Below, piece after piece: positions 5,977 to 26,103 of a stretch of DNA of 42,749 nucleotides. Made by a program: the position numbers and the translations under genes. The DNA lies in NCBI GenBank assembly GCA_011523045.1, contig WTHR01000192.1, positions 1 through 42,749 on the forward strand, written 5' to 3'. Source of the stretch: Gammaproteobacteria bacterium. Lineage in GTDB: Bacteria; Pseudomonadota; Gammaproteobacteria; Arenicellales; UBA868. Every line of letters begins with the position of its first letter. The first letter of the stretch is position 1. Below the pieces are notes generated by a model, which was not told the origin of the DNA, did not search any database, and saw only the letters and a program-made list of their open reading frames with translations.

Positions 5977-8682
5977 TCAATTTTCCAGCAGGGTCTTTAG
6001 CGGGCCGTCGCGTTCCATGAGTTCCTGGGTGCGACCCCGCTCGAGAATTCTTCCAGACTCCATCACCACGACTTCTTCAAAATGCTCGACCGAACTCGCG
6101 CTCTCAAGCGCCCAGATGATTCCCCGGCCGCGCATATGCTCGCGGATCCCCTTGATGAGACTGCCTCGGACATTGAAATCAAACGGTGCCAGCGCTTCAT
6201 CGACCACGAGCAAATCGGGATGCTTCATGAGGGCTCTTGCAAATCCGAGTTTTTGCCGTTGAATACTGCTGAGTTTCCCGCCAGACGTCCCGACTTCTGC
6301 ATGCAGTCCCAATTCCATCACATAGGCTCGTAAATCCACCGCATCAATCACTTCGTCGATGCTCTTGCGTATCTTGCTCCGCAAGGCCGGCTTGCCAAAC
6401 GGCAGCGCCCCAAACAGCACATTGGACTCAACATCCAGCCCCGGGTTAAGAGATGCCGGGTCGAGAAAATCTACCGAATCGTTCGTGTCACCCAATTTTT
6501 CCCGAAGCAGTCCACGGACCTTGAGCAGCTTGGCCTGCAGGGAATCGTCGACAATGCCCAACCGGTGTTGCGCCGGAACCAGGCGGTAAACAAAGGACCT
6601 GAGAACCTCCTGATCGGATTCGGGCAAGGACTGCGGCGACTGATCTTCGGTCGCAGACAGTCTTCTTAGGATCTCTTCGAGAACCGGAAGATCGTCTCCA
6701 CTGATCAGGCTGAAGCGCTCAAAAAGGTCGCTGTCCGGACTGACTCCTTCAAACACTTCGGTCATTGTCTGGGCGACCTTCACCCCCAAATGCAGGAATT
6801 CGTCAAACAGCCCAGCCTCTCGCAACAGGTCAGTAACCAGAGGATTGGAGGGCAACAGCTCCGGCGCGAACTCAGCAGCCAGCGGATAACCGAAGAGAAT
6901 ATTCTGCGAGACTGAAATATTGACGTTGTAGGTATTGGGATCAAATGTGGTGACATCGAGGCCCTTATCCTGAAACTGTCTGCGCGCCTCGAGAATCTTT
7001 GACTCGGTCTGCGGATCGATCTGTGCATCAGCAATGCGAGTCGCAAGACCCATCTGATAGACGTCTTCTCCAAGGTCTGCCACTTCGAGGACCTCTCTTG
7101 CCCGCTCACGCAGCCCTTTTATATCCTGAACCCCCACAGCCGTCAGATCCAGCCAGTCCGCACCCGCATCGTCGGTGCTGTTTCCCGAGGCGATTGATTC
7201 GTGAATCCGGTGTTTCTCATCAGAGCTTGCATCTCCTTTTTGATTCACAGGGGAATTAAAAAGCCCGTAATACAAGTTATGGGCAACGGTTCCGGTGAAA
7301 ATGTACGGCGCGGACCCAACCCAACCGACTCTTCTCCCGGCAACCGCCTCGGGCGCTTCCGCCCAGTCGAGATGACCGACCTCAATCTTGCCGGAGGTCG
7401 GCCAGAGCAGTCTCGCCGCCAGCGCCGACACATCACTCTTGCCGGAACCTGCCCCGCCGACAATGGCGACATGGGTATCCAACGGCACTGAGAAGGTCGT
7501 GTTGCTGACGGTCGTTGTCTCGTCGGCTACATAACTGACGCCTTGCGCCTTGAGTTCCCCTGACAGGGGCTCGACTTCCTCAGGCGCTTCAAGCAGAGAC
7601 TTTCGGATCATGTTTTCAGGCTCAAACTGCTCTGCCACCTGGAGATACTTGACCCGCGTATCTTCAAACACCTGATAGAACTTCAGCAGTTCTTTCCACG
7701 GCGGACCGATATCCTTGTACGCAGCCAGCACCGCGACTAAAGCACCGAGCGAGACTTCTCCCTTGATGACCAGGTAGCCGCCAATGGAGAAAAAGAAAAA
7801 CGGCGTCACCTGGGCCAGGAAATTATTGAGGAACTTGATGAAAAACTTCCTGCGATAGATCTCCTCACGAATACCAAAGATCCGTCCCAGATGGCCGGAA
7901 GTCCGGGCCTGCTCAAAACGTCCGCTGTCGTTGGCATGAATATCGGAAGCGCCCTGCACGGTTTCCCCGATATGCGTGGCCAACACTCTCACTGTCTTGA
8001 CACGTTCCTTGGAGAGTGCGTTCACCTTCGCCTGCAGCTTTGGGATGAGGTACATCTGGGGTGGATAGAGCGCAATAGACGCCAATCCGAGCCAGACATC
8101 CTGCTGGAAAATGAAAGAGAGGTAAGTGAGCAGCAAAGCGCCCTGAAACGCCGGAGCGGCAATCGCGTCCCCAATCAATCCCCCAAGCGGCTCAGTTTCC
8201 GCCGTGATCATGGGGATGATTTCAGCAGGCGGCGTTCGGCGAATCTTGGCTGAAGGAAAACGCAGGATGCGTGCGTACAGATCAAACCGGAAGCGGCGCA
8301 GCATGCGCTCCCCCAGGATGCCCTTGTAAACATTCAGGTAATACTTCAACCCTCCCGAGGCCACCACAGCTACGAGAAACCCGACCGAAAGCAGCATCAG
8401 GAAAGCGACTTGGGTGACTTCGAAGCCAAGGATCATCTCCGGCAAGTTCTCGCCGCCGATCGCCTGATTGATGATCCTTTTGGGGATGTCCAGAGAAATA
8501 TAGACAAGCGGCATGGTCAAGGCCGTCAACAACAGCAGAAACAGCTGACCGCGGAGGGTATGCCGCAGGACATAACGATAGATCGACTTGTCTATCCGGG
8601 GATAATCGGCATCATCCCCCTCAATTGAAGCCGTGGACTGAGCTTTTTTGGGATCGGTCATGGTGGTGGTTTGCGCTGGCAA
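5977..8682 (-). CDS. ABC transporter permease/ATP-binding fusion (exporter-like) with an NBD containing a large insertion
   Basis: ORF 901 aa. N-terminal transmembrane segments, Walker A GGAGSGKS (aa ~409-416), Walker B LLVVDEALAPFD, degenerate signature SGGKLSSIQRQKLGFARAL (aa ~800). The start may be M8 (MTDPKK, 8661). Confidence 0.9.
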   Translation of the reverse strand: MPAQTTTMTDPKKAQSTASIEGDDADYPRIDKSIYRYVLRHTLRGQLFLLLLTALTMPLVYISLDIPKRIINQAIGGENLPEMILGFEVTQVAFLMLLSVGFLVAVVASGGLKYYLNVYKGILGERMLRRFRFDLYARILRFPSAKIRRTPPAEIIPMITAETEPLGGLIGDAIAAPAFQGALLLTYLSFIFQQDVWLGLASIALYPPQMYLIPKLQAKVNALSKERVKTVRVLATHIGETVQGASDIHANDSGRFEQARTSGHLGRIFGIREEIYRRKFFIKFLNNFLAQVTPFFFFSIGGYLVIKGEVSLGALVAVLAAYKDIGPPWKELLKFYQVFEDTRVKYLQVAEQFEPENMIRKSLLEAPEEVEPLSGELKAQGVSYVADETTTVSNTTFSVPLDTHVAIVGGAGSGKSDVSALAARLLWPTSGKIEVGHLDWAEAPEAVAGRRVGWVGSAPYIFTGTVAHNLYYGLFNSPVNQKGDASSDEKHRIHESIASGNSTDDAGADWLDLTAVGVQDIKGLRERAREVLEVADLGEDVYQMGLATRIADAQIDPQTESKILEARRQFQDKGLDVTTFDPNTYNVNISVSQNILFGYPLAAEFAPELLPSNPLVTDLLREAGLFDEFLHLGVKVAQTMTEVFEGVSPDSDLFERFSLISGDDLPVLEEILRRLSATEDQSPQSLPESDQEVLRSFVYRLVPAQHRLGIVDDSLQAKLLKVRGLLREKLGDTNDSVDFLDPASLNPGLDVESNVLFGALPFGKPALRSKIRKSIDEVIDAVDLRAYVMELGLHAEVGTSGGKLSSIQRQKLGFARALMKHPDLLVVDEALAPFDFNVRGSLIKGIREHMRGRGIIWALESASSVEHFEEVVVMESGRILERGRTQELMERDGPLKTLLEN

Positions 8683-8755: not shown

Positions 8756-9988
8756 ATGCCTGTTGCAGTCGTACTCAAAGGCTATCCGCGACTGTCGGAG
8801 ACCTTCATTGCGCAGGAACTTCACAGCCTCGAGAAGGCCGGCGTAGACCTTGAAATTGTCTCGCTTCGTCACCCAACGGATCCCACCACGCACCCGATTC
8901 ATCGTGACATAAAGGCGCCAGTGCTCTACCTGCCGGAATATCTCCACCGGGAGCCGCTGCGCGTCATTAGGGGATGGCGCGCTGCCCGCAAACGTCCAGG
9001 TTATCGTGCTGCCCGGGCTCTGTGGATTAGGGATCTGAAACGGGATCTGTCGATCAATCGTATTCGGCGCTTTGGCCAGGCCCTGGTATTGGCGACAGAG
9101 GCTCGATCATCCACCTCCCTGATGTATGCCCACTTCCTGCATACCCCAGCATCCGTCACCCGCTACGCGGCAACCGTTCGCGACATACCGTGGTCTTTTT
9201 CTGCTCACGCGAAGGACATCTGGACAACGCCGGATTGGGAAAAGCACGAAAAACTTGCCGACTGCGCTTGGGGGGTGACCTGTACCCAGACCGGGTTTTC
9301 ACACCTCAAACAACTTGCCTCGGCTGGGGTCCGACTCAGATTGCTCTATCACGGTCTGGATACCAAGCGGTTTTCTGACCCGGGACCTCGGCACAGTCAG
9401 TCAAACGGTGTCACCGCACAACGAGAGGTTAATCTCCTCAGCGTCGGACGCGCGGTTCCGAAAAAAGGTTTTGACGTACTGCTTGCTGCTCTGGCATCGC
9501 TCCCGGCCGAGTTTCACTGGCACTGGCAGCATGTCGGAGGCGGCGACAAACTGCCGGCGCTGCAACGCGCTGCCGCTGACCTCGGTCTCGAGAAGCGGAT
9601 CTCCTGGCTTGGGCCACAGCCACAGCAGGCAGTCTTGTCTCTCTATCGGGAAAGCGATGTCTTTATATTGCCCAGCCGCATTGCCACCGGAGGTGATCGT
9701 GACGGTTTGCCCAATGTCCTGATGGAGGCGGCAAGCCAGGGTCTTGCTATCATCACAAGCGACCTCCCCGGCATTGCTGAGTTCATCACCCCGGATAAAC
9801 ACGGTGTTTTGGTTTCTCCTGATGACGCAGAGGCGCTCTCCGATGCGATCCACCGCATCGGCACCCACCCGGAGTTAAGAGCGGCCCTCGGTACTGCCGC
9901 AAAAGCCCGGGTGATCCAGGAGTTTGATCATCGGGACAATATCCAGCCACTCATTTCTCTAATCGAAGATGTGGCAGGCGCCGACTGA
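8756..9988 (+). CDS. Glycosyltransferase family 4-like (GT-B)
   Basis: ORF 410 aa: MPVAVVLKGYPRLSETFIAQELHSLEKAG..., VGRAVPKKGFDVLLAALASL, LPSRIATGGDRDGLPNVLMEAASQGLAIITSDLPGIAEFI. Confidence 0.9.
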   Translation: MPVAVVLKGYPRLSETFIAQELHSLEKAGVDLEIVSLRHPTDPTTHPIHRDIKAPVLYLPEYLHREPLRVIRGWRAARKRPGYRAARALWIRDLKRDLSINRIRRFGQALVLATEARSSTSLMYAHFLHTPASVTRYAATVRDIPWSFSAHAKDIWTTPDWEKHEKLADCAWGVTCTQTGFSHLKQLASAGVRLRLLYHGLDTKRFSDPGPRHSQSNGVTAQREVNLLSVGRAVPKKGFDVLLAALASLPAEFHWHWQHVGGGDKLPALQRAAADLGLEKRISWLGPQPQQAVLSLYRESDVFILPSRIATGGDRDGLPNVLMEAASQGLAIITSDLPGIAEFITPDKHGVLVSPDDAEALSDAIHRIGTHPELRAALGTAAKARVIQEFDHRDNIQPLISLIEDVAGAD

Positions 9989-11121
9989 TGAGGATTGGCT
10001 TCTATGCCCCCATGAAGGCGCCCGACCACCCTTCTCCCTCGGGCGACAGAACCCTCGCCCAACTTCTGATCGAGGCGATGACCCAGGCCGGCCACGACGT
10101 TCGATTGATGAGTCGGCACCGCTCCATCGATATCTCTGGAGATCTCGAAAACCAGCGAAAAATCAGGGAGCAAAGCACGCCTGAAGTCGCACGCATCCTT
10201 GATCAACTGCAGAACCACTCTCACTCCATTGATCTTTGGTTTACCTATCATCTTTTTCACAAGGCGCCGGACTGGCTAGGTCCGAACGTCTGTGAGAAGC
10301 TCGACATTCCCTATGTGATTGCCGAAGCCTCCTACGCACCCAAACAAAAAAACGGACCCTGGTGCGAGGGGTTATCCAGCACCGAGACAGCGCTCAGGCG
10401 GGCTGCAGGAATTGTCTCGCTCAACCCTCGCGACCAAGAGTGCATCCAGCCCCTTCTGAAGCCCAAGGCAAAACAGCTTTCTCTCTTGCCGTTCACTCAT
10501 GAAACGGCCTCGCCGTCTGACCACCGGGGTCAACTTAAGCAGCAGTTAGGACGCACGTTCGATATTGACTCGCAACCGCCCTGGCTGGTGACGGTCGCGA
10601 TGATGCGAAAAGGAGACAAACAGCGCTCGTTCAGCATGTTGGCGGCAGCACTTGACGCGGTGAAGGATCTTGACTGGCGTCTCATCATCATTGGGGACGG
10701 GGACGCCGCACAGGATGTGAAAGACGCATTTGCGCCATTGGGTCGACAGCGAGTTTTTTTCACCGGTCAGTTAACGACAGCTGAGGTGCATCCCTATCTG
10801 AATGCCGCAGATCTTTTTGTATGGCCGGCAATCAATGAGGCCTTCGGCATGTCCCTGCTTGAAGCCCAACGCCATGCCCTGCCCGTCGTTGCGGGACACA
10901 CCGATGGAACGGCCACCATTATTGAAAACGAACACACGGGAATACTGACTGAGCCTGAAAATACGGCCGCTTTTTCGCAAGCCGTTAGGCAACTGATGCA
11001 AAATTCCGGATTGCGCGAGCACATGGGGCAAAACGCCCGGCAAAAGTTCCTGGCCCACCACACGCTGAAAAGCGCCTCACAGACCATTGACACTTTTCTG
11101 CGTTCACTGACGGGCGAATGA
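9988..11121 (+). CDS. Glycosyltransferase family 4-like (GT-B)
   Basis: ORF 377 aa: MRIGFYAPMKAPDHPSPSGDRTLAQLLIEAM..., DLFVWPAINEAFGMSLLEAQRHALPVVAGHTDGTATII. Start overlaps the previous stop (TGATG). Confidence 0.9.
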   Translation: MRIGFYAPMKAPDHPSPSGDRTLAQLLIEAMTQAGHDVRLMSRHRSIDISGDLENQRKIREQSTPEVARILDQLQNHSHSIDLWFTYHLFHKAPDWLGPNVCEKLDIPYVIAEASYAPKQKNGPWCEGLSSTETALRRAAGIVSLNPRDQECIQPLLKPKAKQLSLLPFTHETASPSDHRGQLKQQLGRTFDIDSQPPWLVTVAMMRKGDKQRSFSMLAAALDAVKDLDWRLIIIGDGDAAQDVKDAFAPLGRQRVFFTGQLTTAEVHPYLNAADLFVWPAINEAFGMSLLEAQRHALPVVAGHTDGTATIIENEHTGILTEPENTAAFSQAVRQLMQNSGLREHMGQNARQKFLAHHTLKSASQTIDTFLRSLTGE

Positions 11122-11717
11122 CTGAACTGCTTTTTATCCGGCATGGGCCCACCGAGTGGAACGAGGGGGGCCGCATTCAGGGTCGGTCCGATATTCCCCT
11201 GAGCAATTCCGGTCGAGATGAAGTGCGATCCTGGACCCTTCCCGCCTCCTTTCAGTCATGGGCATGTTTTTGCAGTCCTCTTGCACGGGCCCAGCAAACC
11301 GCAGCACTGCTTGGATTTGAAACTCCTCAGATCGTTGATGATCTGCAGGAAATGCACTGGGGAGAGTGGGAAGGTCATACGCTCGACACACTTCGTGCCA
11401 TTGATCCGGAGGCTTTCCGGCGCAATGAAGACCGCGGTCTTGATTTTCGTCCTGCAGGCGGGGAAAGTCCGCGTGAGGTCAGGGCACGACTTGCGCAATG
11501 GGTTGCTTCTCTTGATGAAGAAGTCCTGCCGGCTGTTATCGTCTGCCATAAAGGAGTGCTGCGGGCTGCTCTCAGTCTCGCAACCGGCTGGGACATGTTT
11601 GATGACCCACCCGATAAACTCCGCGAGCCGTGTGCACATCTCTACACGATCCAAGGTAACTCACTGATGGTCAAACAACTGAACATTTCACTTAAAAAGC
11701 CAGAACTCAGCCCATGA
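11118..11717 (+). CDS. Histidine phosphatase family protein (phosphoglycerate mutase-like)
   Basis: MTELLFIRHGPTEWNEGGRIQGRSDIPLSNSGRDEV, SPLARAQQTAALL, HWGEWEGHT, VIVCHKGVLRAAL. 4-bp ATGA overlap with the upstream gene. Confidence 0.93.
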   Translation: MTELLFIRHGPTEWNEGGRIQGRSDIPLSNSGRDEVRSWTLPASFQSWACFCSPLARAQQTAALLGFETPQIVDDLQEMHWGEWEGHTLDTLRAIDPEAFRRNEDRGLDFRPAGGESPREVRARLAQWVASLDEEVLPAVIVCHKGVLRAALSLATGWDMFDDPPDKLREPCAHLYTIQGNSLMVKQLNISLKKPELSP

Positions 11718-12832: not shown

Positions 12833-13259
12833 GCCACTTCTGCACCAACTGCACATCCCCGTCACGATAGTTCAGTCGGCCATAAAATCCGCGGACTGCA
12901 AGATTGTCGTGCCGGATCATGGCCTGAATCTTCGGAACTTTTCTCGCGCGCAGCCAGTTCTCGGCGTGCTCCATGAGAGTTCGCCCGATGCCCTGATGGC
13001 GAAACTGGGAATCCACGGCGAGGTAATACACCCAACCACGGTGCCCGTCGCAGCCGATCATGACACTCCCGCAAAGCGTGTCTTGGGCAGCCGCCACCAG
13101 CAGTTCGGAAGACGGGTTCTCGAGGCACTGACGAATATCGTCTTCGGGGTTATTCCAGGGGCGGGTCAGGTCGCAGTCGTGCCATAACTGCACGAGTCGT
13201 TCCTGATCAGGCAATCCGAATGTCCTGATCTCAACCCGTGGTTGGGAAACGGTCGTCAT
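12813..13259 (-). CDS. ypeA: GNAT acetyltransferase, YpeA-like
   Basis: VEIRTFGLPDQERLVQLWHDCDLTRPWNNPEDDI...GYDGHRG-like CDGHRGWVYYLAVDSQFRHQGIGRTLMEHAENWLRARKVPKIQ. Confidence 0.85.
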   Translation of the reverse strand: MTTVSQPRVEIRTFGLPDQERLVQLWHDCDLTRPWNNPEDDIRQCLENPSSELLVAAAQDTLCGSVMIGCDGHRGWVYYLAVDSQFRHQGIGRTLMEHAENWLRARKVPKIQAMIRHDNLAVRGFYGRLNYRDGDVQLVQKWLNERTS

Positions 13260-14395
13260 GATGAAAGATAGGCATTCAGGGCTTCGGCTGAACGCTCTGC
13301 GCCGTCACAGACGACAGGCGCAAAAGACCCCGGGGGCTGTGCCAGCAGGCTGTCTGCTGCCGCCGCCAGGGCTGGGCCATCCAGGTCCGCCTCGGGCAGA
13401 ACCTGAGCTCTTTGAATTTTCAGGAGGTGTTGCGCCCGTGCCGGTTGCTCTGTCTCGCCGCCTTTCCCGGTAAATGGCACGAGCAGTGCCGGCGCACCAC
13501 TCGAGAGAATATCAACGACGCTGTTGTAACCCGCTTGGGAAACCGACAGTCGGCAACCGCTCAAAAGATCCCGAAAGTCGGCGCGGTTGGGTTCAACTGT
13601 CAGCGTGTCCGAGCCCATTTGGCGCAAACGGCTGACGAAATCCGGATCAGGCGAGGCGCCCGCGAGAATCCGCCACACGATATCGGAATGCATCGAGAGC
13701 GCACTGGCTTGCGCTGCTGCAAGATAGAGCCGCTCGCCAGCCTTCCCTCCACCCGCCGAGACGAGAACTTCCCGAGAGCGCCGCGAAGAAGATTCCCCTC
13801 TTGGTTTTGAGTAAGACGTCGTATCTACAAAGCCGGTGTAGGACACGAGGTCGGCGATCTCATCGAACTCGTCAAAGGAGTCACTCAAGGGCAAGAACTC
13901 CTGCTCCCCATGCACAAGCACCCGCTGATAATAATCTCGAAGCCAGCCTATCGTCTCCGCTTCACGGGCTCTCGAGCGTTTTTGAACGCTGTCCCGTACA
14001 GAGCACAGCACAGGGGTTTTTGCTGCCCGCGCTGCTTCAAGTAAAGGCAGTAACTCAAATCGGAACCGCCTTCGCCCAAATGGAAACAACTCCGTTACCA
14101 GCACCTTGGGCTGCAAATCATGAAAAAGCCGCAGCAGTTCTTTAGTACGTACGGTTTCCAAAACGTCGTTTAGGGGCTCACCACGGCGATCCACAATACT
14201 CGAAAAGGAAAGATCCGCACTTTGCAGGGGCTCGAGCTGATGCACCGGAAAAGGTGACGCCTGTTGCAGATTAATGGGCATCCCACCGGTGATTACCGCA
14301 ACAGGCGTTCCAGCATTCTGGCAGGCTTCAGCAATGGCCAGTGTTCGGCGCAGATGGCCGATACCCAGTAGATGCTGAACGTAGAAAAGGATCAA
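13256..14395 (-). CDS. MurG/GT28-like glycosyltransferase (GT-B)
   Basis: MILFYVQHLLGIGHLRRTLAIAEACQNAG..., VLVSAGGGKAGERLYLAAAQ, CRLSVSQAGYNSVVDILSSGAPALLVPFTGKGGETEQPARAQHL. Confidence 0.85.
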   Translation of the reverse strand: MILFYVQHLLGIGHLRRTLAIAEACQNAGTPVAVITGGMPINLQQASPFPVHQLEPLQSADLSFSSIVDRRGEPLNDVLETVRTKELLRLFHDLQPKVLVTELFPFGRRRFRFELLPLLEAARAAKTPVLCSVRDSVQKRSRAREAETIGWLRDYYQRVLVHGEQEFLPLSDSFDEFDEIADLVSYTGFVDTTSYSKPRGESSSRRSREVLVSAGGGKAGERLYLAAAQASALSMHSDIVWRILAGASPDPDFVSRLRQMGSDTLTVEPNRADFRDLLSGCRLSVSQAGYNSVVDILSSGAPALLVPFTGKGGETEQPARAQHLLKIQRAQVLPEADLDGPALAAAADSLLAQPPGSFAPVVCDGAERSAEALNAYLSS

Positions 14396-14419: not shown

Positions 14420-15637
14420 TCAGGAGAGTTGTTGGCGTACTGGGGCTTTGTCGAAAAGCAGGCGATGGGTGCGGTCACAGATAACGTCCAAACCTGACAA
14501 GATCTGATCTGAACCCGCCGCAGAAGGCAGCGACTGGCGCTCGAGTCCACGCAAGGCCATCGCCATCGCACCAGCAGACCGATCGCCATCGCCATCGAGC
14601 ATTGACACCAGGCCAAGCGAAGCCGCCCGGCGGGCGCGAAGTGTTTGCTCCATACGCGGCCTAGAGCGCGGAATCAGCAGCGCAGGCTTATCAAGCGACA
14701 GGATTTCGCAAAATGTGTTGTAACCGCCCATGGCAACCACACCGGCCGCCCGCTCCATTACCAATTCCATGTTGGAATTGAAGACGATGGTCTGCACCCC
14801 CGTGAGCGCCTCGGCCCGCAATTGAAACTGCTGTCTGACTGCCTGGGGCATAAATGGCCCCAGAACGATCACAACAGGTTTGGCTGGCCGGGGTTTTTGT
14901 TCCAGTGCGTTCAAGACCCAGTCCACCAAAGTCTCGCCATCTCCCCCGCCTCCAGGCGTCACCAGCAGAAACGGTTCGCGCGGCAGGTTGACGGGCGCTC
15001 TTGCAATCGAAGGCACCGATCGACGCAGGTATCCGGTATAGACCATCCTCTGTAGACCTGCTTCACTGACGCCCAATTCAGCCAGCGGGTTACCCATCGA
15101 GCGCGATCCAAATACCCAGAGCTCGTCATACCAGTCCTCAAGATTTCGCGGTGTCCCGCGATGATCCCACTCTTTGTTCAACAAAACGGGGTCATCAAGA
15201 ATATCCCGAAGCCCGAGGACTGTCGGCACACCTTTGTCTCGAAGTTTCTTAAGGGTTTGGGTGACTTCCCCCCGAAGCCCTAGTGGCTCCTTATCCACGA
15301 TAAACAGGTCAGGAGAAAACGTATCTGCAGTCTGCTCCATAATGGACGCCCGCAGCTGCAGCGTCTGAGACAGGTCAATATGATCCGAAAGAGAGGTGTA
15401 GTCACCGCCACGGAGCTTGACCACACCCGGGATCCGCACAAAATCCACCCGGCTTTTGAAATCAAAACTGCCGATAATCGGAGAACCTGAGACGATCAGG
15501 ACCTTCAGGCCGGCAAACTGATCCACCAGGGCATGAGCAATGGTCCGACACCGGCGCAAGTGGCCTAGGCCAAATGAGTCGTGGCTGTAGATCAGAACAC
15601 GCTTGCCGTGCAACTGGTTGTTTATATCATTGGTCAT
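14420..15637 (-). CDS. MurG/GT28-like glycosyltransferase (GT-B), paralogue of the next gene in the operon
   Basis: RVLIYSHDSFGLGHLRRCRTIAHALVDQF..., LLVTPGGGGDGETLVDWVLNAL, GVVAMGGYNTFCEILSLDKPALLIPRSRPRMEQTLRARRAASLGL. Confidence 0.86.
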   Translation of the reverse strand: MTNDINNQLHGKRVLIYSHDSFGLGHLRRCRTIAHALVDQFAGLKVLIVSGSPIIGSFDFKSRVDFVRIPGVVKLRGGDYTSLSDHIDLSQTLQLRASIMEQTADTFSPDLFIVDKEPLGLRGEVTQTLKKLRDKGVPTVLGLRDILDDPVLLNKEWDHRGTPRNLEDWYDELWVFGSRSMGNPLAELGVSEAGLQRMVYTGYLRRSVPSIARAPVNLPREPFLLVTPGGGGDGETLVDWVLNALEQKPRPAKPVVIVLGPFMPQAVRQQFQLRAEALTGVQTIVFNSNMELVMERAAGVVAMGGYNTFCEILSLDKPALLIPRSRPRMEQTLRARRAASLGLVSMLDGDGDRSAGAMAMALRGLERQSLPSAAGSDQILSGLDVICDRTHRLLFDKAPVRQQLS

Positions 15638-18378: not shown

Positions 18379-19911
18379 TTAAAGTGGAATGTTGCCGTGC
18401 TTACGCCAGGGATTATCCAGTTGCTTATTGCGCAACATGGCAAGAGACCGGCTGATCCGGGTGCGGGTCTCACTCGGCAAGATGACATCGTCAATGAATC
18501 CTCTATGGCCAGCCACAAAGGGATTGGCAAACTTCTGGCGGTATTCCTCCGTCCTTTGGGTAATCTTCTCTTCATTACCGATATCTTCACGAAAGATAAT
18601 CTCCACCGCCCCCTTGGGCCCCATCACGGCAATCTCCGCACTGGGCCAGGCCAGATTGACATCCCCGCGCAGGTGTTTGGAAGCCATCACATCGTAGGCC
18701 CCGCCATATGCTTTTCGCGTAATAACCGTGACCTTAGGCACCGTACATTCTGCGTAGGCATAAAGCAGTTTTGCGCCATGTCTGATAATGCCGCCGTACT
18801 CCTGGGAAGTTCCCGGCAAAAAGCCCGGCACATCGACGAAGGTCACGATTGGAATGCTGAAGGCATCGCAGAACCTGACGAAACGCGCCGCCTTGACCGA
18901 CGACTGAATGTCGAGACACCCCGCGAGCACCATGGGTTGATTGGCCACGATACCAACGGTTGAGCCGTCCATACGGCCAAACCCGATCAGGATGTTGCCT
19001 GCAAAATCCGGTTTCAGCTCAAAGAAATCACCATCGTCGACGACTTTGGTGATGAGTTCGTGCATGTCATAAGGCTTGTTGGGATTGTCTGGTATCAGCG
19101 TGTCCAGAGACGGTTCGGTCCGGGTGACCGGATCCATTGCCTGCCGCTGGGGCGCCTCATCGACATTGCTCGCCGGCAGAAAATCGATAAACCGACGCAG
19201 GCTCAAAAGCGCCTCGACGTCATTATCAAAGGCACCGTCGGCCACTCCGGATCGACTCGAGTGTGTGGTTGCTCCGCCAAGTTCTTCATGGGTCACTGTT
19301 TCATGCGTGACAGTCTTTACGACCTCTGGGCCCGTGACGTACATGTAGGAGGTATCCCGGACCATAAAAATAAAGTCGGTGATAGCCGGTGAGTAAACAG
19401 CGCCCCCGGCACAGGGGCCCATGATCATGGAGATCTGCGGAATCACGCCTGACGCCAGAACGTTGCGCTGAAAAACCTCGGCATACCCAGCCAATGAGTC
19501 AATACCTTCCTGAATTCTGGCGCCGCCCGAATCATTCAGGCCAATCACGGGCGCACCTGCCCGCATGGCGTGATCCATGATCTTGCAGATTTTCCCCGCA
19601 TGCGCCTCAGAAAGGGATCCTCCGAGCACCGTGAAGTCCTGACTGAAGACGAAAACGGTGCGGCCGTTGATAGTCCCATGCCCGGTGACCACGCCATCGC
19701 CCGGCACCGCTTTATCAGCCATATCAAAGTCGGCGCACCGATGCTCAACGAAAATGTCCCACTCCTCAAAACTGTCTTCGTCCAGCAGCACACCGATCCG
19801 TTCTCGCGCGGTCAACTTGCCCTTGGCATGTTGAGCGTCAATACGCCTTTGGCCTCCTCCCTGACGGGCCGCTTCACGGCGCCGCTCCAGTTCCTCGAGA
19901 ATCTCGCGCAT
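18379..19911 (-). CDS. pccB: Acyl-CoA carboxylase carboxyltransferase (beta) subunit, propionyl-CoA carboxylase beta-like
   Basis: [130 protein letters not shown]. Confidence 0.94.
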
Positions 19912-22064
19912 CAGTCGTTTTCCTCTGTGAGGGGAATCAGATCAAACACCTCGCGGGCTGCCTCGAGAATAGGCGTGCCCGGGCCGAAAAACGCCGCCAC
20001 ACCCAGCGATGAGAGCGCTTCGCGATCGGCCTTGGGCACGACTCCGCCCAATACCACCTTTATGTGACCTGCGCCTTTAAGAGAGAGATTTTCGAGCACT
20101 TTCGGCACCAGAGTGGAGTGACCCGCTGCCTGAGAGGAGACACCAATCACGTGCACATCGTTATCGAGCGCCTGCTGCACAACTTCCTCAGGGGTCTGGA
20201 ACAGCGGTCCGATATCCACATCAAATCCCACATCGGCAAATCCGGTTGCGATGATGCGCGCCCCCCGGTCGTGGCCATCCTGGCCCAACTTGGCAACGAG
20301 AATGCGCGGCCGCCTGCCCTGCCGCGCAGCAAAAGCGGCGACATCCTCCCGCAACTGCTGAAAGGTCGCATCCTGCTGGTATGCCTCGCCGTACACGCCT
20401 GAAATTGTCCTGACCTGAGCCTGATATCGACCAAATTTCTCTTCCAGCGCGAGCGAGATTTCACCAACGGTTGCCCGAGCCCTTGCCGCTTCGACGGCAT
20501 ACTCTAGCAGGTTGGCGCCGCCCTGCCCGGCAGCCGACTGCAGTGCGTCAAGCGCCTGCCGGCATTTCTCCTGATCGCGATTCGCGCGAACGGACTCCAG
20601 GCGGTCAACCTGCGTCTTCAATACCTCAGAGTTGTCGATGCTGAGAATATCCACCTCGGTCTCCTCAGACGCCTCATAGCGGTTTACGCCAACAACGACT
20701 TCGTCACCGCGGTCTATTCTTGCCTGCTTTCTCGCCGCTGCCTCCTCGATTCGCATCTTGGGGATGCCGTTTATGATTGCCTGAGTCATGCCGCCCATGT
20801 CCTCGATTTCATCGATCAGGGATCGCGCATGTGCCGCGAGGCTGGCCGTCAGGCTCTCGACGTAATAAGACCCGCCCAGCGGATCGACCACGCGGTTAAT
20901 ACCCGCCTCTTCACGAAGAATCAGCTGGGTGTTGCGTGCGATGTGCGCGGAGAAATCGGTTGGCAGAGCAAGCGCCTCATCAAAGCTGTTGGTATGCAGC
21001 GACTGCGTCCCACCGAGTACGGCGGCCAGCGCCTCGATGGTTGTTCTCACGATATTGTTATAAGGGTCCTCACTGGTCAGACTGACACCTGAGGTCTGGC
21101 AATGCGTTCTCAGCATCAATGAGCGCGGATCCGAGGGATTGAATTTTTCCTGGATCAACTGAGCCCATAGCAACCGCGCCGCCCGCAGCTTTGCCACCTC
21201 CATGAAAAAGTTCATTCCAATCCCGAAGAAAAACGACAGGCGGGGGGCAAACTTGTCGATCTGCAATCCGCTTGCCACGGCGGTGCGAACATATTCAATA
21301 CCGTCTGCCAGCGTATAGGCCAATTCCTGGACAGACGTCGCTCCAGCCTCCTGGATGTGATATCCGGAAATCGAGATCGGATTAAAGCGCGGCATATACG
21401 CTGCGGTATAGCCAATGATGTCGGAAACGATCCGCATCGACTCCTGCGGCGGATAAATATAGGTGTTGCGCACCATGAACTCTTTAAGGATATCGTTCTG
21501 CAGCGTTCCGGAAAGACTCGCCTTGTCCACGCCCTGCTCCTCGCCGGCAACGATAAACATTGCCAACACGGGGATCACGGCGCCGTTCATGGTCATGGAC
21601 ACCGACATTCGGTCCAGGGGAATGCCATCGAAAAGAATCCGCATGTCCTCGACCGAGTCAATCGCGACTCCAGCCATGCCGATATCACCGGTGACGCGCG
21701 GATGATCCGAGTCATAGCCTCGATGGGTTGCAAGATCGAAAGCGACCGACAGCCCGCTTTGGCCTGCCGCCAGATTGCGCCGGTAAAAGGCGTTGGACTC
21801 CTCTGCCGTCGAAAAACCGGAATACTGGCGAATGGTCCAGGGCCGTCCCGCGTACATGGTGGCCCGCGGACCCCTGACATAGGGCGGCAAACCCGGCAGA
21901 CCCCCCTGGTGATCCAAATCTTCCAGATCCTCAGCGGTGTAGAGTGGCTTGATAGAGATGCCCTCAGGGGTCACCCACTCCAGGTCTTCGGGTTGATCAC
22001 CCGACAGTTCTCGGGCCGCCAAATCCTGCCAGGCTCTCAGCGAACGATCAGTTGAATCCGTCAT
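19911..22064 (-). CDS. scpA: Methylmalonyl-CoA mutase (single-polypeptide large subunit with C-terminal B12 domain)
   Basis: [60 protein letters not shown]..., B12-binding C-terminus [41 protein letters not shown]. Confidence 0.96.
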
Positions 22065-22081
22065 GACGCAGGTCCGAAGTC

Positions 22082-23995
22082 TTATTCCGCTCGAGGCAAG
22101 CCAATGGCTTTCAAAGATTCTGTTATCTCATCCAGAATCACCGGATCATCAATCGTTGCCGGCATCTTCCATTCCTCACCGTCGGCAATCGCTCTCATGG
22201 TTCCGCGCAGCACTTTCCCCGAGCGGGTTTTTGGCAGACGCTTGACCACGAGCGCCTGCTTGAAAGCCGCCACGGGGCCGATTCGCTCCCGAACCATTCC
22301 AACGACTTCTGTACAAATGACCTCTGTCGGGCGATCGCACCCAGCACTTAAAACAAGAAAGCCCAGCGGCACCTGACCCTTCAGCTCATCTGCCACCCCG
22401 GTGACCGCGCACTCAGCAACATCTGGATGATCTGCCAGCACTTCTTCCATGGCGCCGGTGGAGAGCCGATGGCCAGCGACATTGATGATGTCATCAGTGC
22501 GCGACATCACATACACATAGCCATCTTCATCAATGATTCCGGCGTCGGAAGTATTGTAGTAACCCGGGAACCGGCTCAAATAGGAATCGAAATGACGCTG
22601 GCGCGCATTCCATAGGGTGGGGAATGTGCCGGGCGGCAGCGGCAACTTCACCGCCAGCGTACCAATCTCGCCGGCAGGGGTCGGGGCCCCGGCTTCGTCC
22701 AGGACTTGCAGATCCCAACCCGGAACGGGCAACGAAGGAGATCCCTCCTTGATCGGAAGAAGTTCAATGCCGGCACAGTTCGCGGCAATTGACCAGCCCG
22801 TTTCCGTCTGCCACCAATGATCAATGACCGGCACGTTGAGCTTGTCTTCCGCCCAATGGAGTGTGTCGGGATCGGTTCGTTCGCCAGCAAGAAAAAGATA
22901 CCGTAATGATGAGATATCGTATCGGCCGATATGCTCCCCCGACGGATCCTCTTTTTTGATGGCACGAAAAGCCGTGGGTGCTGTAAACAATACGCTTACG
23001 CGGTTTTCGCTGATGACACGCCAGAAGGCACCGGGATCCGGGGTGCCCACAGGCTTTCCCTCATAAAGAACCGTCGCATTACCAGCCAACAGGGGGGCGT
23101 AGACAATATAGGAATGTCCCACAACCCAGCCGACGTCAGAAGCCGCCCAGAAAGTCTCGTCGGGACTCACGTCGTAGATGTTCTTCATGGTCCACTTAAG
23201 GGCGACGGCATGACCGCCGTTATCCCGGACCACCCCCTTGGGCTGCCCGGTGGTCCCGGAGGTATAGAGAACATAAAGGGGGTCTGTTGCCAGCACCGGC
23301 ACGCACTCATGCGGCACCGCGTTTGCCACTTCTGTCTGCCAGTCAAAATCGCGGCCGGCGGTCATGGCGGCGCTTGCCTGGGGGCGCTGGAGCACAATAC
23401 AGAAGTCCGGCTTGTGATCCGCCAGTGAAATCGCCTCATCCAGCAAAGGTTTGTATTCCACCACCCGGCCAGGTTCGATTCCGCAGGATGCACTGACAAT
23501 TGCCTTGGGAGTGGCATCATCGAGTCGCACCGCAAGCTCGTTGGCAGCAAAACCGCCAAAGACGACCGAGTGCACAGCGCCCAAGCGGGCACAGGCGAGC
23601 ATGGCGATAACGGCCTCAGGCACCATCGGCATATACACGATGACCCGATCTCCTTTACCGACACCGCGTGCGGCCAGAACCCCTGCAAAAGTCGCGACGG
23701 CATCACGCAATTCAGAAAATGAAAAAGTCTGTCGGGCCTGCGTCATCGCAGAGTCATAAATAAGCGCCGTGCGGTCGCCGTTGCCCTCATCGATATGCAG
23801 GTCTAAAGTGTTGTAGCAAGTATTGAGCTCGGCGCCGGAAAACCATCGGTAATACGGCGCATCGGAATCGTCCAGCACCCTATCCCAAGTGCGGGTCCAG
23901 TGAATATCTGCGGCCGCTTCCGACCAGAACTGCTCGGCATCCTGAAGCGACGCCGCAAAGATCTTTGAGTAGGAATAACTGGGACTTGCACTCAT
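22082..23995 (-). CDS. prpE: Propionyl-CoA synthetase (acetyl-CoA synthetase-like)
   Basis: [118 protein letters not shown]. Confidence 0.94.
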
Positions 23996-24208
23996 GAGAT
24001 GATGCCTTGCGATTGCTTATTCATAGTCCATCCAGAAAAGAAAACTCGGCGTCTGCGGCATCTTGCTAAACGCGAAACCTGTTGCCGGTCTGATAGACTC
24101 CTTCCCTCGACGCCGTCCCAGATCCCGAACCGTTATTGGCGCACCGCCTTGCTCGCTGACCCAAGGCCCATTGTAACGGTTTGTATTTGCTTCCCCAAAG
24201 GAGTTCTC

Positions 24209-24986
24209 ATGAGTTACGAATACATCTTGACCGAAACCCGCGAAAACGTGGGACTGATTACCCTTAACCGGCCTGATGCTCTCAATGCCCTGTCTGACGG
24301 CCTGATGGACGAGGTGGGCCAAGCCCTCGCACACTTCGAGCAAGACGACGCTATCGGAGCCGTGGTTATCACCGGGAGTGAAAAAGCCTTTGCGGCTGGC
24401 GCCGATATCAAGGGGATGAAGGATCGCTCTTACATGGACGTGTATCTCGGAAACTTTATTGGGCGCAACTGGGAACAGGTCACACGCTGTAGAAAACCAG
24501 TAATCGCAGCTGTGGCCGGCTACGCGCTCGGCGGAGGATGCGAACTCGCCATGATGTGTGACTTTATTCTTGCGGCAGACAACGCCCGTTTCGGCCAACC
24601 CGAGATCAAGCTTGGCATTATTCCAGGGGCCGGCGGCACCCAGCGACTGACGCGCTTCGTCGGCAAATCCAAAGCAATGGAAATGTGCCTGACCGGGCGC
24701 ATGATGGACGCACAAGAAGCAGAGCGTGCCGGACTGGTTAGCCGGATTATTCCCAGTGCTGATCTTTTAGAAGAAGCCGTGAAAACAGCGGGCGAGATCG
24801 CTGCGATGTCACGGCCTTCCGTGTTTATGGCGAAAACTGCCGTCAACAAGGCTTACGAGACAACATTGGCCGAGGGCGTTGCCGCGGAGCGAATTATGTT
24901 CCAGTCGCTGTTCGCCACAGAAGATCAGAAAGAAGGCATGGCAGCATTTGCCGAAAACGCGCCGCTGATTTCAAGAACCGTTAGGA
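24209..24986 (+). CDS. Enoyl-CoA hydratase/isomerase (crotonase); end given assumes correction of a -1 frameshift at about 24954-24957
   Basis: ATG 24209 after [47 protein letters not shown]..., [72 protein letters not shown]. Adding one A to GAAAAC gives [14 protein letters not shown] ending at TAG 24984-24986. The uncorrected ORF reads on to 25165. Confidence 0.88.
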
Positions 24987-24993
24987 TTTTGAA

Positions 24994-26103
24994 TTGCAGG
25001 TCAACGGAACCCCTTTCCGATCAATCTGGCTCGCCTCGGACAGGTCCGAGGTTCTGGTCATTGACCAGACTCTATTGCCCTTTGCCTTTGAGGTGCGGAC
25101 ACTTACCACCTCGAGCGAGACAGCACTTGCCATCCGTGAAATGGTTGTCCGCGGTGCACCGCTGATCGGAGCGACGGCCGCCTGCGGAATGTTTCTTGCG
25201 GCCGCCAGTGATGCCAGCGAGGACAATCTGCGGCGCGCCTGTGCGGAACTGCTGTCTTCGCGCCCCACCGCGGTCAACCTGCGCTGGGCGCTCGACCGAA
25301 TGCTTCCTTTGTTGCTGGAATGCTCCGAATCGGAGCGCGCAGACCGTGCCCGGATGCTCGCCCAAAAAATCTGCGACGAGGATGTGGCCACCAACAGCGC
25401 TATCGGCAACCATGGACTGACGCTTATTTCCGAAGCGGCCGACGCCTGCCCACATCGACCAGTGAATATCCTCACACACTGCAATGCCGGCTGGCTTGCG
25501 ACGGTCGATTGGGGCACCGCCCTCGCGCCGATCTTCAAGGCACATGATCAGGGCATTGCAGTTCACGTGTGGGTAGATGAAACGCGGCCGCGCAACCAGG
25601 GTGCCTCACTGACGGCATGGGAGCTTGCCGCTCACGGCGTCCCCCACACGGTGATTGCCGACAATGCCGGCGGTCATCTGATGCAGCATGGCGAAGTCGA
25701 TCTTTGTATCGTCGGATCGGATAGAACCACCCGTGCCGGGGATGTCTGCAACAAAATCGGCACCTATCTCAAAGCGCTCGCTGCCCACGACAACGGGATT
25801 CCCTTCTATGCCGCCCTGCCGTCTTCCACCATCGATTGGACGATTTCGGATGGCGTTCGGGATATCCCGATCGAAGAGCGCGCCGAAGAGGAAGTCAGCC
25901 ACATCTGTGGCCGCGACAGTGAGGCGGACAGGCTCGTGCGAGTGCGAATCATCCCTGACGGCAGCTCAGCCGCCAATCCTGCCTTTGACGTCACACCACG
26001 CAAACTCGTAGATGGCATTATTACCGAAAGAGGCGTAGTGAAGGCGTGCGAGGACGATCTCGTCTCGCTTTTTCCACAGGATGCCGAAGTGCCAAACATA
26101 TAA
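24994..26103 (+). CDS. mtnA: S-methyl-5-thioribose-1-phosphate isomerase
   Basis: TTG start: (M)[36 protein letters not shown]...[120 protein letters not shown]. Confidence 0.94.

Follow-up and report, generated by a model that had tools for sequence, protein, structure and literature searches.

The stretch of DNA analysed here (the window, 42,749 nucleotides) carries on its minus strand an open reading frame that, to judge from its sequence, encodes an ABCB-type half-exporter, with a transmembrane domain (TMD) and a nucleotide-binding domain (NBD) in one chain (ABC_membrane and ABC_tran in Pfam, 53.9 and 58.5 bits, both above the cut-offs). The TTG is doubtful as a start, because the alignment, together with an ATG in frame at 8661 (residue 8), suggests that this ATG is the real one, giving 894 amino acids. 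An AF2 monomer model based on a shallow alignment (pLDDT 80.9, pTM 0.76) shows fold matches to P-gp, BSEP, TmrAB and MsbA. The protein scores below every NCBIfam exporter equivalog cut-off, including that for MsbA (best scores 166.2 bits for a cut-off of 853.3 and 163.3 bits for a cut-off of 602), and no NCBIfam model covers its family. The features of the reading frame are:

5977..8682, minus strand: ABC half-exporter open reading frame, 901 amino acids from TTG
7603..8586, minus strand: transmembrane domain (ABC_membrane), residues ~33–360, the most conserved part of the protein
7435..7458, minus strand: Walker A motif GGAGSGKS, residues 409–416, with Lys in 41/66 family members
7264..7329, minus strand: Q-loop region VGWVGSAPYIFTGTVAHNLYYG, residues 452–473, with Ser457 at the Gln position
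6259..6273, minus strand: signature LSSIQ, residues 804–808, with SGG in 0/66 family members
6196..6213, minus strand: Walker B motif and catalytic Glu, LLVVDE, residues 824–829, with Asp in 14/66 and Glu in 31/66 family members
6097..6123, minus strand: H-loop region GIIWALESA, residues 854–862, with Glu860 at the His position

Walker A and Walker B are thus present, and the LSGGQ signature, the Q-loop Gln and the H-loop His are absent, with S457 and E860 facing the latter two residues in pairwise HMMER alignments. The ABC_tran match is split, its N-terminal part ending at about residue 488 and exporter models restarting at about residue 788, and Walker A lies 395 residues away from the signature, as compared to 103–111 residues in 29 MsbA-like orthologues from the same order. 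The first-pass annotation of this DNA had been right about all of this, i.e. the split ATPase domain, a motif spacing of about 390 residues against roughly 100–110, the missing Gln and His, the degenerate signature and the retention of Walker A, Walker B and the catalytic Glu. Since the last three are kept, some ATPase activity of the window copy is possible; it may bind ATP, with normal hydrolysis being probably out of reach.

The first-pass annotation had also proposed an insertion of about 280 residues. The extra region is real, with residues 464–750 corresponding to 287–313 residues in 53 family sequences (Walker A-to-signature spacing 395–421), but 'tandem triplication' of a module of the NBD itself is the more fitting description. 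Three consecutive units can be delineated:

6955..7329, minus strand: repeat unit A, residues ~452–576, with Q-loop-like segment, N469, helices and the 'KILEARRQF' helix (hhalign with shuffle control, AF2 secondary structure)
6481..6954, minus strand: repeat unit B, residues ~577–734, with 'VTTFDPNTYNVNISVSQNILFG', N594, helices, an extra helical insert and the 'KLLKVRGLL' helix (hhalign with shuffle control)
6199..6480, minus strand: repeat unit C, residues ~735–828, with 'VDFLDPASLNPGLDVESNVLFG', N754, the native helical subdomain and the signature helix (hhalign with shuffle control, AF2)

All three share the same order of elements, i.e. a strand with a Q-loop-like segment (VGWVGSAPYIFTGTV in unit A, VTTFDPNTYNVNISV in unit B and VDFLDPASLNPGLDV in unit C), an N-x-[LFY]-[FY]-G motif, 'L..lGL' helices and a long helix whose core is [AV]R (KILEARRQF, KLLKVRGLL and QKLGFARAL, respectively), and the AF2 model shows the same succession of helices and strands in each. 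Profile–profile comparison with hhalign gave scores of 72.1 for A–B, 71.4 for B–C and 33.5 for A–C, with none of 100 column shuffles per unit pair exceeding 19.3; most of the A–B score is contributed by the unit's C-terminal end, and most of the B–C score by its N-terminal end. The Asn of the motif is invariant (N469 in 66/66 sequences, and N469, N594 and N754 all present in 53/53). Moreover, in five genomes the insertion profile matches a second time just behind its main match (~1e-7), with its unit-B start falling on the expected unit C. The best reading of the 'insertion' is that of two additional tandem copies of the module consisting of Q-loop, helical subdomain and signature helix, with unit C being the native helical subdomain; this is well supported for A–B and B–C and less so for A–C alone. 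Modelled on its own, the insertion is an all-helical domain (pLDDT 87.7) that finds no fold match in the PDB at E ≤ 0.001. No intermediates with one or two units were recognized among those partial matches from 399 genomes of the phylum that were examined, and the open-licence literature yielded no description of this NBD architecture.

The three-unit exporter occurs in the order of the window at 44–94% identity and in 31 of 399 genomes taken across the phylum; overall, the analysis draws mostly on metagenome-assembled genomes. The named loci belong mostly to uncultured Gamma- and Alphaproteobacteria, with Acidiferrobacteraceae/Arenicellales as the nearest labelled relatives, but the family is also found on replicons of Rhizobium, Sinorhizobium, Azospirillum and roseobacters; a search of viral contigs gave no relative, and there was no hint of a role in defence or of a phage origin. 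A decayed or misassembled gene, which degenerate motifs and a fragmented assembly might have suggested, is so improbable that we discard it: the same length and architecture recur in more than 60 gamma- and alphaproteobacterial species including complete replicons, and dN/dS against near relatives is 0.05–0.08 overall and 0.06–0.11 in the insertion where measurable, i.e. the near relatives are under strong purifying selection. Insertion-free homologues with canonical motifs, which would have left the window copy as a single decayed gene, are not what surrounds it, because the split domain and the degenerate motifs are family-wide. Some genomes carry two or three family copies. At two loci (L119, L120; G056:C10, G044:C88), there is a second, even more degenerate copy in a genome that also carries a less degenerate one, and the two may form heterodimer pairs. 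An 850-aa protein (L146:5473-8022, G088:C1) combines the same three-unit NBD with a strongly different transmembrane half, which points to the rebuilt NBD as a portable module.

What varies within the family is the catalytic equipment. Most relatives do not retain both Walker A and Walker B. Among 66 sequences, the Walker A Ser/Thr is found in 16, the Walker B position is Asn in 48, and the Q-loop Gln and the H-loop His are each found in nine. The Walker A Lys, Walker B Asp and catalytic Glu occur together in just 10 and are all missing in 19, and on a tree derived from TMD columns they require at least 6, 7 and 13 state changes, respectively. The copy in the window ranks among the least decayed members; in more distant copies, when read by eye, the Walker motifs are unrecognizable and the three N-x-x-x-G units are kept. 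At the same time, identity within the family is 63% in the TMD and 41% in the NBD core, whereas the MsbA control shows the reverse (43% versus 52%). Together with the erosion of the motifs, this indicates that selection acts more strongly on the membrane part and the helical scaffold than on catalysis. The 'divergent ATPase cycle' suggested by the first-pass annotation therefore captured the degeneracy of the motifs but is probably too weak a wording: the absence of SGG throughout, of the Walker B Asp in 52/66 and of the Walker A Lys in 25/66 sequences points to a trend towards no ATPase cycle at all.

The genomic context, together with the cyclic-nucleotide-binding partner described below, offers the best functional clue to this exporter and had been overlooked by the first-pass annotation. 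In the window, a set of glycan genes lies near the reading frame, for two of which co-occurrence was counted in exporter-positive versus exporter-negative genomes (32 versus 29, i.e. 61 genomes of the window's order):

8756..9988, plus strand: GT4 glycosyltransferase, divergent neighbour, with GT4 genes at the same position in most loci
9988..11121, plus strand: second GT4 glycosyltransferase, with a phyletic profile like that of the exporter (29/32 versus 1/29)
11118..11717, plus strand: histidine phosphatase of the cluster (neighbourhood comparison)
13256..14395, minus strand: GT28-like (MurG-type) glycosyltransferase (domain search)
14420..15637, minus strand: GT28-like glycosyltransferase, with a phyletic profile like that of the exporter (28/32 versus 2/29)

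Over about 81 loci, the recurrent neighbours include GT4 (61, mostly divergent) and GT28-like glycosyltransferases (41), the histidine phosphatase (29) and a polysaccharide deacetylase-like protein (17). These loci show no recurrent canonical exporter half-gene and no recurrent gene for another dedicated flippase or exporter. Some genomes are devoid of one or the other pathway gene, possibly reflecting genome incompleteness. Sulfitobacter, Rhizobium and Sinorhizobium have the same set of neighbours and, close by, also a nucleotide-sugar dehydrogenase and a peptide-type ABC importer. An adjacent LD-carboxypeptidase (S66) had invited a reading as microcin resistance, which was dropped, as this gene lies beside the exporter in only nine loci near the window. 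In one member of the order, an HPr-kinase-C-like P-loop protein (L116:2854-3681; Pfam match below the cut-off) adjoins the exporter, and further along the window (18379-25165) there is an ordinary propionate/methylmalonyl-CoA gene set (carboxyl transferase, methylmalonyl-CoA mutase, acyl-CoA synthetase and enoyl-CoA hydratase).

A small cyclic-nucleotide-binding (cNMP) protein is encoded adjacent to, near or fused with the exporter in about 50 loci. Fusions are located at the C-terminus of the exporter (L069, L100, L102, L105 and, by reading, also L141–L145), while other cNMP genes are kilobases away; in the genome of the window, the copy (PF00027, 63.9 bits) sits on a different contig next to an HD-like gene. 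An orthologue (E < 1e-29) is present in 31/32 exporter-positive but only 2/29 exporter-negative genomes, with a Fisher p of 7e-14 that overstates the independent evidence because the 61 genomes are related. One of the two exceptions carries an in-frame TAA in its cNMP orthologue (G010:C39:10596-11036), with no exporter found in this genome, which may reflect joint loss. The phosphate-binding cassette is intact in about 48 of 50 cNMP proteins (Glu in 48/50, Arg in 49/50), and the window genome contains six matches to class III cyclase domains. Going by gene fusions, adjacency and co-occurrence, the cNMP protein may bind the exporter and control it. Three side observations touch on this partner: the HD-like protein (L115:3706-4341, L116:9866-10492; no Pfam match), found beside the cNMP gene in both the window genome and a relative, is possibly a phosphohydrolase of the pathway; a 1168-aa family member (L069:8001-11504) is fused to the cNMP-binding domain plus a weak GGDEF-like domain; and a protein with an adenylate/guanylate-cyclase domain is encoded upstream of rhizobial clusters (L103:3646-4989, L104:1826-3175).

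The reading we favour, and consider reasonably probable, is that of a homodimeric glycan exporter that has a link to cyclic nucleotides and a pseudo-ATPase NBD. The half-exporter, probably as a homodimer, would carry out the inner-membrane export or flipping step in a conserved pathway for a cell-surface glycan or a glycan intermediate. Its rebuilt NBD, in which the module repeated three times in tandem would form a large all-helical lobe and the ATPase residues have repeatedly been lost, may act as a pair that serves as a pseudo-ATPase or regulatory lobe and couples the TMD to the small cNMP-binding protein. Because Walker A and B remain, the dimer of the window clade may still bind ATP in non-hydrolysing sites similar to site 1 of CFTR. 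In many relatives, ATP binding itself appears unlikely and transport would therefore have to use something other than ATP hydrolysis, such as the proton motive force, as in SbmA, a substrate gradient or gating. A more far-reaching version, which we put forward tentatively as a serious possibility, is that of a widespread family with an ABC-exporter fold that operates without ATP hydrolysis, with the three-module helical pseudo-ATPase relaying a cyclic-nucleotide signal and the conserved TMD moving a surface glycan with another source of energy.

Other explanations have to be weighed against this pseudo-ATPase glycan exporter. The protein could be a true but slow ATPase exporter with a non-canonical cycle, in which the Walker motifs suffice and the helical lobe substitutes for the residues of the Q- and H-loops. 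The window clade, which retains the Walker A K/S and the Walker B D/E, as well as the 10/66 sequences with K, D and E together speak for this, but the absence of the Asp in 52/66, the Glu in 35/66, the Lys in 25/66 and all three in 19/66 sequences, with the architecture unchanged and the TMD strongly conserved, makes it unlikely. That the protein is no transporter but a membrane scaffold or sensor, which in a SUR-like manner regulates glycan synthesis by cyclic nucleotides, would fit with the lost catalytic residues and the linked or fused cNMP domain (in one fusion also with a GGDEF-like domain); with the TMD being the most conserved part and the cluster lacking any other recurrent flippase or exporter, we regard this as quite unlikely.

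Asymmetric pairs of a degenerate and a canonical protein are common among ABCB exporters, and the exporter could be one half of such a heterodimer, with the catalytic site coming from a canonical half-transporter encoded elsewhere, as in TM287/288 or TAP. The genomes with two or three family copies might be seen in this light; the extra copies examined, however, are more degenerate rather than less, and no canonical half-gene recurs near the exporter in the roughly 81 loci, all of which renders a heterodimer with a canonical partner quite unlikely as well. The pseudo-ATPase glycan exporter continues to be our preferred reading: with catalytic residues lost in most relatives and the gene nevertheless under selection together with glycan and cNMP genes, this may be a transporter that is no longer run by ATP.

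For transport driven by ATP, ABC exporters are the textbook case. A family that loses its ATPase residue by residue, while its TMD is the most conserved part, allows hydrolysis-free ABC export or gating to be tested directly, and if transport without ATP hydrolysis were shown, this would be more than a variant of the ABC exporter kind. Its closest counterparts in sequence and fold are MsbA, TmrAB and TM287/288, i.e. ABCB-type (type IV) half-exporters with the same order of TMD and NBD in one chain, from which it differs by two extra helical modules in the NBD, by unconserved catalytic motifs and by a TMD that is more conserved than the NBD. CFTR and SUR have degenerate nucleotide sites and play gating or regulatory roles instead of pumping. 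Both are full-length ABCC proteins, however, in which one site is competent, whereas here both sites of the presumed homodimer would be degenerate. SbmA/BacA (SLiPT) provides a precedent for an ABC-exporter-like TMD driven without ATP, with SbmA drawing its energy from the proton gradient and resembling ABC TMDs in structure according to PMC13316013. SLiPT transporters are TMDs without an NBD; the window family, by contrast, keeps a full though degenerate NBD and shows no sign of belonging to them.

A further comparison is with the rhizobia, in which two genetically tractable laboratory strains, S. meliloti 1021 and R. johnstonii 3841, are available for work on the family. In Sinorhizobium meliloti, the gene order is GT28-like, GT4, GT28-like, methyltransferase, exporter, cNMP, FkbM and LacI. 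With SMb21265 given as 'glycosyltransferase family protein' in PMC10128002 and SMb21272 as LacI family (PMC11387232), counting the genes in between fits with SMb21269 being the exporter and SMb21270 the cNMP gene. By this count, the family member and its cNMP and glycosyltransferase neighbours appear to lie inside the cluster smb21252–smb21271, in which, according to PMC10128002, protection against phazolicin by a putative surface polysaccharide (PPP) requires nine genes, with cyaA insertions being depleted too; predation up-regulates seven of these nine PPP genes (PMC10315480). The S. meliloti homologue reads TGGTSGGGE at Walker A, VFNQP at Walker B and LTSGQ at the signature, i.e. it is devoid of the Walker A Lys, the Walker B Asp and the catalytic Glu. 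In the open-licence literature, no individual characterization of the transporter of the PPP cluster was found. If the mapping of the locus is right, this cluster with its clear phenotype contains a family member that has no ATPase residues. The family also supplies candidates for the transporter and for a second-messenger switch of a rhizobial surface polysaccharide, one that confers protection from an antimicrobial peptide.
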